From contig JAMLHB010000003.1 of NCBI GenBank assembly GCA_023957375.1, positions 69,830 to 133,829 of the forward strand: 64,000 nucleotides of DNA. The letters run 5' to 3'. Positions 12,007 to 55,395 of the stretch are shown piece by piece. The stretch is from Flavobacteriales bacterium. Its GTDB lineage: Bacteria; Bacteroidota; Bacteroidia; Flavobacteriales_F; PHOS-HE28. The first letter of the stretch is position 1. Each line of letters begins with the position of its first letter. The notes below the pieces were generated by a model. It searched no databases. It saw only the letters and a list, made by a program, of their open reading frames with translations, and was not told where the DNA came from. The translations under genes and the position numbers were made by a program.

Positions 12007-12086
12007 GGAGGAAGGGAGGAAGGGAGGAAGAGAGGAAGAGAGGAAGAGAGGAAGAGAGGAAGGGAGGAAGAGAGGAAGAGAGGAAG
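12007..12086. repeat. Array of ten 8-bp polypurine repeats
   Basis: Ten consecutive 8-bp units of (A/G)GAGGAAG run from 12007 to 12086, all purine on the plus strand. The array lies directly upstream of the -7-like CATCTTTG of the YhiN-type gene, where the -33 region would be. The unit length and composition resemble the larger array at 53208-53447. Confidence 0.9.
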
Positions 12087-12137
12087 AGGGGGCACGTGAA
12101 ACTCCCGCTTGGAAAGTCAGCAAACGGAGGGCGATGG

Positions 12138-51970: not shown

Positions 51971-52042
51971 GGGAAGGTTCGTGCGGAGGATTTGCCCGGG
52001 GTGAATGGACCGTAAGGCTTTCTTCACACACCGGCGGGGCCG

Positions 52043-52067
52043 CGAAAATAGCAGTGGCATACCTTCG
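52043..52067. promoter_or_regulatory. Back-to-back -7 elements for alaS and the M23 peptidase
   Basis: Minus-strand TATTTTCG (52043-52050) points to alaS and plus-strand TACCTTCG (52060-52067) points to the peptidase gene. The elements are only 9 nt apart, so polymerases at the two promoters would exclude each other. Confidence 0.5.
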
Positions 52068-52088
52068 CGCTCCGCCGCATCCGCGCAA

Positions 52089-53057
52089 ATGGGCGAGCAC
52101 AAATACCGCTTCAACCCGGACACGCTCAATTTTGAGCGCATCCGCCTCAGCGGGTGGAAGAAGCTCAAGCGCGTATCCCTGGCCTTGGCACCGGGCCTGT
52201 TGTTCGGCGTGGCGGGCATCTTTCTGGCCTTCCAGTTCATCGATTCGCCCAAGGAGGCCACGCTGCGCCGCGAAAACCAGCAGTTGATGGTGGAGTACGA
52301 GCTGGTGAACAAGCAGTTGGCGGACATGGAGAAGGTGTTGGGCGACCTGGAACGGCGGGATGACAACGTGTACCGCGTGATCTTCGAGGCCGACCCCATC
52401 CCCCCCACCGTGCGCATGGCCGGCATTGGCGGGGTGAACCGGTACCGCGACCTGGAAGGCTTCGCCAACAGCGACCTGGTGATCGCCACGCGCAAACGGC
52501 TGGACATGCTGTCCAAGCGCATGTACGTGCAAAGCCTCTCGCTGGACGAAGTGGGCAAACTGGTGCTGCGCAAGCAGGACATGCTGGCCAGCATCCCCTC
52601 GGTGGAGCCCATTCCCCAAGACCAAACGCGGCTCAGCTCCGGCTTCGGCGAACGGATGCACCCGATCTACAAGATCGGGAAGGCCCACCTCGGCCTGGAT
52701 TTCACCAGCCCCACCGGCACGCCCATCCACGCCACCGGCGACGGCACCGTGGAGTTTGCGGGGTACAATACCAGCGGCTACGGCTACCACGTGATCCTGG
52801 ACCACGGCTACGGGTACAAAACCCTGTATGGGCACATGAGCAAGGTGGCCGTCAGGCGCGGCCAAAAGGTAAAGCGGGGCGATGCCATCGGCGAGGTGGG
52901 CAGCACGGGCCTGAGCACCGGCCCCCACTTGCACTACGAGGTCATCAAGGACGGGGTGCACATGGACCCGGTGAACTTCCTCTTCAACAGCCTTACGCCC
53001 GAGGAATATGCACGCATGGTGGAGATCGCCGGCAATGCCGGGCAGTCGATGGATTGA
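52089..53057 (+). CDS. M23-family LytM-type metallopeptidase
   Basis: The 322-residue protein has one N-terminal membrane anchor (residues ~35-52), a coiled coil (about residues 57-90, ATLRRENQQLMVEYELV) and a C-terminal LytM domain. Zinc ligands are visible: the first His in KAHLGLDF near residue 200 and HLHYE near residue 281, with GSTGLSTGPHLHYE. Such enzymes cut peptidoglycan cross-bridges or act as activators of amidases when catalytic residues are lost; here they appear intact. Bacteroidota relatives often sit near alaS, as here. Confidence 0.93.
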   Translation: MGEHKYRFNPDTLNFERIRLSGWKKLKRVSLALAPGLLFGVAGIFLAFQFIDSPKEATLRRENQQLMVEYELVNKQLADMEKVLGDLERRDDNVYRVIFEADPIPPTVRMAGIGGVNRYRDLEGFANSDLVIATRKRLDMLSKRMYVQSLSLDEVGKLVLRKQDMLASIPSVEPIPQDQTRLSSGFGERMHPIYKIGKAHLGLDFTSPTGTPIHATGDGTVEFAGYNTSGYGYHVILDHGYGYKTLYGHMSKVAVRRGQKVKRGDAIGEVGSTGLSTGPHLHYEVIKDGVHMDPVNFLFNSLTPEEYARMVEIAGNAGQSMD

Positions 53058-53207
53058 TGGAAGGGTGATTGGTGCGCAACACCTCAATCGCAACAGCCCA
53101 ACCCGGAAATCAGGTGAGGAAGTGGGGACGTGAAGTGGCGAAAGTTGATCAGAGCGAAATCCGTAACCCGTAACCACCCAACCTGTACTGCAAAGGAGGA
53201 TATGGAA

Positions 53208-53447
53208 GGTGAAGAGGTGAAGAGGTGAAGGGGTGAAGGGGTGAAGAAGTGAAGAAGTGAAGAGGTGAAGAAGTGAAGAGGTGAAGAAGTGAAGAGGTGA
53301 AGAGGTGAAGGGGTGAAGAGGTGAAGAGGTGAAGAAGTGAAGAGGTGAAGAAGTGAAGAGGTGAAGGGGTGAAGAGGTGAAGAGTTGAAGAGTTGAAGAG
53401 TTGAAGAGGTGAAGAGGTGAAGAAGTGAAGAGGTGAAGAAGTGAAGA
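53208..53447. repeat. Array of thirty 8-bp repeats
   Basis: Thirty consecutive 8-bp units of (A/G)G(T)GAAG(A/G), such as GGTGAAGA, AGTGAAGA and AGTTGAAG, fill 240 bp in register, all nearly pure purine apart from one T per unit. Because 8 is not a multiple of three, any unit gain or loss shifts downstream spacing. It ends 98 nt before the MerR -7 element and resembles the ten-unit array at 12007. Confidence 0.93.
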
Positions 53448-53545
53448 GGATGAGGTGTGGTGATCGGCAGTTCTTCGCTTTGCATTGAGCGGTTGGCCGA
53501 GTGGATCCGAAGGGGGGATTCAAATGAGGATCTTGCCCGCCTGCC

Positions 53546-53553
53546 TATATTCG
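53546..53553 (+). promoter_or_regulatory. -7 element TATATTCG before the MerR gene
   Basis: TATATTCG, then TGGCG and the ATG at 53559. Transcription would start at the start codon. Confidence 0.45.
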
Positions 53554-53558
53554 TGGCG

Positions 53559-53918
53559 ATGTCGTTGAAGGAGAAAACGATCGGGCGCATGTACTGGACG
53601 ATCGGCGAAGTGGCCGATGACTTGGGCGTGAACGCTTCCCTACTGCGCTATTGGGAGAAGGAGTTCGGCAGCTTGCGGCCCAAGCGCACCAACCGTGGCG
53701 ACCGCCTTTACACCCGGGACGACATCGAGCAGTTGCGGCAGATCCAGCACTTGGTGAAGGAAAAAGGCTTCACCCTGCAAGGGGCCAAAGGGCAGTTGCG
53801 CCATGGGGACGCCCTCGCCGCCGCACCTGCGCCCGACATGCCCGACCTGGAGGGCCTGCGCGACCGGTTGTTGCAAGTGAGAAGCCTGCTGGTCCGGCTG
53901 CGGAACAACGAGCCGTGA
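53559..53918 (+). CDS. MerR family transcriptional regulator
   Basis: The 119-residue protein has a MerR DNA-binding domain: YWTIGEVADDLGVNASLLRYWEKEF (residues ~12-36) followed by RGDRLYTRDDIEQLRQIQHLVKEKGFTLQGAKGQL. After it there is only a short helix, with no metal-binding cysteines or drug-binding domain, as in the short MerR proteins of Bacteroidota. Its usual effect is to realign promoters with long spacers. The target is unknown; mgtE, 82 nt downstream, has its own promoter. Confidence 0.9.
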   Translation: MSLKEKTIGRMYWTIGEVADDLGVNASLLRYWEKEFGSLRPKRTNRGDRLYTRDDIEQLRQIQHLVKEKGFTLQGAKGQLRHGDALAAAPAPDMPDLEGLRDRLLQVRSLLVRLRNNEP

Positions 53919-54000: not shown

Positions 54001-55395
54001 ATGACCTTCACCCTGAGCAAAGCCAACCTGGAACGCATCCAGGAAAACATCGCACAGCAGCGCGACGATGAACTGCTGGCAGCGGTGAAGGACCTGCACC
54101 CGGCGGACATTGCCGAGGTGCTGGACCAGTTGAGCCTGAAGGAAGCCCAGTACCTCTTCGAGCGGCTGGAGCCGGAGATGGCCGCCGAGGTGATGCTGGA
54201 AGTGCCCGAAGACCGGCGCGATGAGCTGTTGGGCAACTACACCGGCAAGGAGATCGCCGAGGAGCTGATCGAGCACATCGAGTCGGACGATGCCGCGGAC
54301 GTGATCGCCGAACTGCCCGAGGAAGTGCGCGAGGAGGTGCTGGCCAACATTGAGAACGAGGAGCACCGCAAGGAGATCAGCGAACTGCTGACCTACGACG
54401 AGAACACCGCCGGCGGCCTGATGGCCAAGGAGCTGGTGAAGGTGCACGCCAACAGCAGCATGCTGGATTGCGTGCGCGTGCTGCGCACCCATGCCGAGCA
54501 CGTGGACGACGTGTACGTGATCCTGGTGGTGGACGACCACGACCGGCTGGTGGGCACCATTCCCATCAAGGCCTTGCTCACCACCAGCCTGCGCACGCCG
54601 GTGAGGGAGGTGTACGACCCGGATGTGATCAGTATCCGCGCCCACGAGCATGTGGAGGAGGCGAGCCGGATCATGGAGAAATACGACCTGGTGGTGCTGC
54701 CCGTGGTGGACGATCGCGGCCATTTGCTGGGCCGCATCACCATCGACGACGTGGTGGATGCCATCCGCGAGGAGGAAACCGTGGATGCCCACCGCATGGC
54801 CGGCATGGAGGCCTTGGAATACTCTTACAGCCACAGCGGCCTGTGGGAGATGGTGAAAAAGCGCGTCGGCTGGCTCATCATCCTGTTCGTTGGCGAAAGC
54901 TTCACGGCCACGGCCATGGGCTTATACATGGACGAGATCGAGAAGGCCGTCGTATTGGCGCTCTTTGTGCCTCTGATCATCTCCAGCGGGGGCAATACCG
55001 GTTCGCAGGCCAGCACGCTCATCATCCGCGCCCTGGCCTTGGGCGACATCACCGTGAAGGAATGGTGGCGCATCTTCAAGCGGGAGATCAGCGTAGGCCT
55101 GATCTTGGGCGCGATCCTCGCCGTGGTGGGCTTTGCCCGCGTGGCCATCTGGAGCCAGTTCGTCAGCCTCTACGGGCCGCACTGGCTGTTGGTGGGCATG
55201 GTGGTGGCGCTTGCCCTGCTGGGCGTGGTGGTCTGGGGCAACTTGGTCGGCTCGCTCTTTCCCCTGCTGCTGAAGCGTGCAGGCATGGACCCCGCCAGCG
55301 CCTCCGCCCCGTTCGTGGCCACCTTGGTTGATGTGACCGGCTTGGTGATCTACTTCAGTATCGCCTCGATGTTCCTACGGCAGATCCTGGCATGA
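54001..55395 (+). CDS. mgtE: Magnesium transporter MgtE
   Basis: The 464-residue protein has the MgtE N domain (superhelix, residues ~20-135) with acidic repeats, two CBS domains (from LVKVHANSSMLDCVRVLR, and DPDVISIRAHEHVEEASRIM to DDVVDAIREEETVDA), and five membrane segments with the pore motif SGGNTGSQASTLIIRALALGD near residue 330. The family gates magnesium by binding it in the cytosolic domains. The stop overlaps the following gene's ATG as ATGA. Confidence 0.97.
   Translation: MTFTLSKANLERIQENIAQQRDDELLAAVKDLHPADIAEVLDQLSLKEAQYLFERLEPEMAAEVMLEVPEDRRDELLGNYTGKEIAEELIEHIESDDAADVIAELPEEVREEVLANIENEEHRKEISELLTYDENTAGGLMAKELVKVHANSSMLDCVRVLRTHAEHVDDVYVILVVDDHDRLVGTIPIKALLTTSLRTPVREVYDPDVISIRAHEHVEEASRIMEKYDLVVLPVVDDRGHLLGRITIDDVVDAIREEETVDAHRMAGMEALEYSYSHSGLWEMVKKRVGWLIILFVGESFTATAMGLYMDEIEKAVVLALFVPLIISSGGNTGSQASTLIIRALALGDITVKEWWRIFKREISVGLILGAILAVVGFARVAIWSQFVSLYGPHWLLVGMVVALALLGVVVWGNLVGSLFPLLLKRAGMDPASASAPFVATLVDVTGLVIYFSIASMFLRQILA

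Follow-up and report, generated by a model that had tools for sequence, protein, structure and literature searches.

The window, meaning the whole stretch of 64,000 nucleotides that was analysed, comes from the genome of a Flavobacteriales bacterium (hereafter the source genome) and carries an octamer array in the spacer between an M23 peptidase gene and a gene for a MerR-family regulator. The features of the locus are as follows.

52005..53057, + strand: M23 peptidase gene, 350 aa, 5′ of the array (Pfam PF01551, E 1.2e-35)
53084..53590, − strand: open frame of 168 aa antisense to the array, judged not to be a gene (codon usage, no Pfam match)
53207..53449, + strand: octamer array, 30.4 units of AGGTGAAG with the variants AAGTGAAG, GGGTGAAG and AGTTGAAG
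53546..53553, + strand: TATATTCG, conserved −7-like (TAnnTTnG) box of the MerR gene (conservation in the genus)
53559..53918, + strand: MerR-family regulator, 119 aa, most likely start ATG 53559 (Pfam PF13411, E 1.5e-22)
54001..55395, + strand: MgtE-type divalent cation transporter (Pfam PF01769, E 5.6e-38)

The octamer array and the MerR promoter box

Tandem Repeats Finder reports the array as period 8 with 30.4 copies, 90% matches, 0% indels and a score of 381, whereas chance sequence of equal length (30 first-order Markov sequences) scored at most 69. The thirty 8-bp repeats in strict register that a preliminary description had recognized are therefore real and lie far above Markov chance, and in its short tandem unit, repeated over a length well above chance, the array agrees with a long simple sequence repeat. 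It is also the longest 7- or 8-bp array in a 1.19 Mb sample of the source genome. The units comprise 15 copies of AGGTGAAG, eight of AAGTGAAG, four of GGGTGAAG and three of AGTTGAAG; variation is confined to the first three bases of the unit, the last five (TGAAG) are invariant, and the + strand is free of C and 86% purine. Along the array the variants follow the order AAABBCCACACAABAACACABADDDAACAC, where D is AGTTGAAG, and the three AGTTGAAG units stand side by side, an arrangement with a chance of about 0.7% by our own arithmetic. Such clustering of like variants fits the duplication of units in place. No complementary arm was found within 200 bp of the array (locus L063), which is absent from the list of inverted pairs.

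The antisense frame was considered as a coding sequence and rejected, as its codon log-odds are −0.16 per codon against +0.32 to +0.49 for the neighbouring genes and it has no Pfam match; it stays open because the octamer unit yields no stop codons on the − strand. RNA from neither strand of the array folds, and in the M23-MerR spacer a search of Rfam matched no known RNA family, and neither an intrinsic terminator nor a sigma-70 promoter was found.

The MerR gene most likely starts at ATG 53559, since congener matches mostly begin at residues 26-35 of its longer form. Of 24 genomes of the genus, the source genome counted, 18 carry a TAnnTTnG motif no more than 26 nt before the start of MerR (1.1% expected after shuffling), and the motif lies most often exactly 13 nt ahead of that start, which is also its distance in the window. 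This motif is close in shape to the −7 element of Bacteroidota promoters. On the strength of this conservation, TATATTCG is a credible candidate for the MerR promoter box, and if it is the promoter then the claim that the array sits 98 bp upstream of that promoter holds, at a distance of 96 bp from the array end (53449).

A second octamer array, 10.1 copies of GAGGAAGA, is intergenic at positions 12008..12088 (+ strand) of the window. It lies upstream of a minus-strand gene and begins 13 bp from that gene's start codon, far nearer a start than the array at MerR, and judged by position it may be the better candidate of the two for an effect on expression.

The MerR neighbourhood in the genus

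The order of the M23 and MerR genes is kept in the genus, and most congeners have 8-55 bp between the two and a subset 69-443 bp, against about 500 bp in the source genome. The octamer array is absent from this site in every congener examined. Congener G002 has in the same spacer an unrelated 7-bp array, 12 copies of GTTGTCG, and inverted 7-bp arrays lie directly 3′ of MerR in G031 and G005; in G031 the MerR-MgtE spacer (L031 100-296) holds 18 copies of the heptamer GTTGTTA with a complementary array beyond. As these arrays differ from that of the window, the MerR neighbourhood holds different arrays in different species, and the window array is, by sequence comparison, not a MerR-specific element. 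Two congeners additionally have REP-like palindromic pieces between M23 and MerR (CCCTTCGGCTCCGCTCAGGGC and relatives; L031 651-1093 and L033 1487-1701).

These comparisons bear on two functional readings of the array. According to one, slippage ahead of the MerR promoter would shift distance or local structure there and thereby alter MerR expression. The array does sit in the MerR upstream region, and related arrays vary in copy number between species (see below), but its end lies beyond the core promoter, 96 bp upstream of the −7-like box, it is missing at this site in all congeners examined, and arrays of 7 or 8 bp adjoin unrelated genes. In the source genome such arrays occupy 23 of 285 tandem, 6 of 57 convergent and 5 of 100 divergent spacers, with no clear preference for gene orientation by these counts. 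Contingency repeats lie inside a reading frame or a promoter, and the window array lies in neither, the frame opposite being non-coding by codon usage. The proposal of a MerR switch thus loses ground, the same array occurring beside unrelated genes as well, and phase variation is a very unlikely account of the array. The other reading is that the purine strand forms a triplex, a G-quadruplex or an R-loop, or that each unit binds a protein, for which the purine content and the lack of C on the + strand would be favourable. Uninterrupted homopurine with mirror symmetry, as required for H-DNA, is not what is found, as there is a T in each unit, the main unit AGGTGAAG is by inspection not mirror-symmetric (only AAGTGAAG is) and the best 20+20 mirror identity is 0.9. 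A G-quadruplex of the GGGNATC type draws on four consecutive GGG units, whereas GGGTGAAG makes up four of the 30 units with at most two adjacent; GGGG is confined to these four, so there is no run of four G-triplets. The unfolded RNA of either strand and the lack of conservation at the site also stand against a structural or binding role, which appears just as improbable as a switch. The earlier suggestion of a triplex is weakened by the T every eight bases and the asymmetric main unit, and that of a protein bound at, or phased by, each unit gained no support.

Dispersal of the octamer and kinship with known repeats

Octamer arrays occur at several unrelated sites in the source genome and in the congeners G031 and G032, with single weak matches in three more congeners and none in the remainder; most of the 58 sampled relatives lack the octamer, and a reversed octamer pattern had no match. 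Among 395 genomes sampled from the phylum, the source genome alone has at least four exact octamer units. A scan of GTDB, which gives presence in scattered lineages and not frequencies, returned the octamer, among the matches listed, from Calothrix, Caldilineaceae, Gemmatimonadetes, Acidobacteria, Planctomycetes, Armatimonadetes, Prevotella and others, often with many loci per genome. Genomes have their own dialects at the two variable bases, GTGAAG being followed mostly by AG here, by GA in both Calothrix and by GG in Caldilineaceae and Gemmatimonadetes. Repetition of one octamer at many loci of a genome, in a dialect of that genome's own, is not predicted by independent slippage of random seeds. 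Carriage of the arrays by a mobile element was considered and rejected, as the flanks of eight octamer arrays of the source genome have no sequence in common. In G032 an array-bearing module of 302 bp is present twice at 83% identity (L015 2998-3299 and L017 1884-2151).

The octamer belongs to a wider set. In the 1.19 Mb of the source genome, 27 of 42 arrays of period 7 and 32 of 50 of period 8 are intergenic, compared with 4 of 103 of period 12, counts that are approximate because genes were called with a simple codon-usage script. Arrays whose unit is not a multiple of three are thus mainly intergenic here, as in long simple sequence repeats, and arrays of period 7 and 8 are an intergenic feature throughout the genus. 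The two periods are equally frequent in the source genome, at about 23 per Mb each.

Orthologous octamer arrays of the source genome and G032 have 8.1 and 11.9 copies at one site (L010 and L013, 87.7% identity over 3.5 kb) and 7.6 and 6.6 copies at another (L009 and L017, with homology on one side only), copy numbers that, coming from short-read assemblies, may be misstated. Shared sites with unequal copies indicate that arrays persist across species and change in length. These differences, together with the clustering of equal variants in the window array, lend indirect support to that part of the preliminary description which held that slipped-strand copying changes copy number. At the second site the homology stops about 20 bp short of the octamer array (L009 ~3025, L017 ~2027), as it would at a rearrangement boundary.

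A literature search on the octamer itself found nothing, and several described repeats resemble it. The heptamer arrays GGGAATC and GGGGA(C/T)T of Xanthomonas and Nostoc, for which no function was found (Rehm et al. 2015, PMC4692102), are likewise dispersed, mostly intergenic and G-rich with a fixed short unit, there in up to 26 units, and their sites are conserved between two species while their length varies. They lie nearer the 5′ neighbour irrespective of gene direction, and they form inverted pairs that converge and can be likened to the pairs described below. The window array differs in its unit of 8 rather than 7 bp and in being unpaired, that is, without the G-rich arm followed by a complementary C-rich arm of the Xanthomonas pairs, and GGG tracts and a G-quadruplex belong to the published arrays only. 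TAACTGA heptamers of Beggiatoaceae, Cyanobacteria and some Bacteroidetes (MacGregor 2015, PMC4679880) are also intergenic short-unit arrays in scattered lineages, reaching 43 copies in some Bacteroidetes and Cyanobacteria, and near relatives of two such Bacteroidetes have shorter spacers without repeats. Unit and period are different from those of the window array, and the translational role proposed for TAACTGA, from adjacency to start codons, is inapplicable here. The long simple sequence repeats of prokaryotes with units of 5-11 nt (Mrazek 2007, as summarized in PMC4679880) agree with the present arrays in unit length, in a non-coding bias of units whose length is not divisible by three and in lineage-specific bursts for which polymerase slippage was proposed; according to the same summary heptamers dominate among them, whereas period 7 and 8 are equally common in the source genome. 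The window array is probably a further case of this class, placed near MerR by happenstance.

Arm order in inverted pairs and the origin of the arrays

Many of the short-unit arrays occur as inverted pairs, and these follow an order. In unbiased stretches, 22 of 24 array records from the source genome and 9 of 9 from four congeners place the G-rich arm ahead of the C-rich one, a count in which both arms of a single pair may figure as separate records; at the loci from the GTDB scan, chosen for their octamer, all 45 of 45 records are G-rich-first with many different units. An independent whole-genome test of 44 congeners located the heptamer pair GTTGTCN-GTTGTC...GACAACN-GACAAC in this order at 39 distinct loci, spread over 13 genomes and some of them orthologous to one another, and at no locus in the reverse order; octamer pairs are G-rich-first at three loci with none opposite in 55 genomes. 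As the order might be fixed within a single unit family, the number of unit families outweighs the number of loci; by reading of the records, about 20 unit types follow the order and one breaks it. Other intergenic hairpins of the source genome have no order bias (33 versus 27). For one unit the rule is partly known already, as Rehm et al. (2015, PMC4692102) described convergent pairs in two Xanthomonas (70 and 75 cases) with a matching position bias, and the present pairs extend it. Having no partner arm, the window array is itself no evidence for the rule. The two C-rich-first records (L057 1018-1054 and 4909-4945) lie near the start of one contig (C3) and are possibly the ends of a single element. 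Fold-back copying of one arm was rejected as a source of the pairs, since pairs of Caldilineaceae, the source genome and G031 carry, by inspection, unlike variant orders in their arms.

For the window array itself, the likely explanation is that it is a member of the dispersed intergenic 7/8-bp long simple sequence repeats, grown by slippage and with little or no effect on MerR. A G/A-rich seed octamer would have arisen in a spacer tolerant of added DNA and would have been extended in place through repeated slipped-strand copying, while MerR would be driven from the conserved box near its own start codon with almost no influence from the array, which is probably close to neutral. For this one array, slipped-strand growth from a seed octamer is, we infer, the most economical account. 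Simple slippage does not explain the arm-order rule, and the shared word and the order together appear to need something more, either slippage at a hairpin when the nascent strand is G-rich or the extension of broken ends with G-rich repeats followed by joining.

In the former case a polymerase entering a hairpin would stall and slip when the new strand is G-rich, so that arrays would grow on both arms of G-rich-first hairpins, single arrays being decayed or half-grown forms. This possibility, which we hold tentatively, would refine growth by slippage, and the two are not exclusive. It predicts the arm order seen on both strands and is consistent with the palindromic core, such as GGCTGCC/GGCAGCC, inside several heptamer pairs, but it leaves the genome dialects unexplained, and no complementary arm accompanies the window array. 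Nor does arm order separate it from the addition of short G-rich repeats to broken 3′ ends, which on joining would leave single arrays or (G-rich)n-(C-rich)m pairs, like telomere fusions. End addition would fit the G-rich-first order across many units and phyla and its lack in the other hairpins of the source genome, as well as arms that have a common vocabulary yet are no mirror copies and a dialect specific to each genome. Against it, hairpin-stalled slippage predicts the same order, the window array is single-armed, and neither an RVT_1 reverse transcriptase (PF00078) in the source genome, at a Pfam sensitivity that very divergent enzymes could escape, nor a match for Ku end joining in that genome or five congeners was found. 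DRT10, a telomerase-like bacterial reverse transcriptase that makes short tandem-repeat cDNA from an RNA template (9 nt in one system; preprint, PMC12632851), is a conceptual parallel only, and chromosomal insertion of its product was not found in the text that was searched. Addition at breaks is therefore an improbable origin, and slightly less probable still is the broader proposal that the G-rich 7-8 bp arrays of unrelated phyla are scars of a shared 3′-end extension with a genome-specific word, followed by joining, of which the window array would be a one-ended case. If true, this reading would account for the G-rich-first order in nearly every inverted pair.

Growth by slippage thus stands as the preferred account of the window array, which is itself probably neutral, and the arm-order rule is the part that deserves follow-up. 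Any mechanism that makes such arrays must account both for an arm order found across several phyla and for the genome dialects, and random slippage does not. Y1 transposases (PF01797) have nine matches in the source genome and are present in all 13 of 13 genomes tested, which makes them of no discriminating value; those of the source genome are possible movers of the palindromic pieces.
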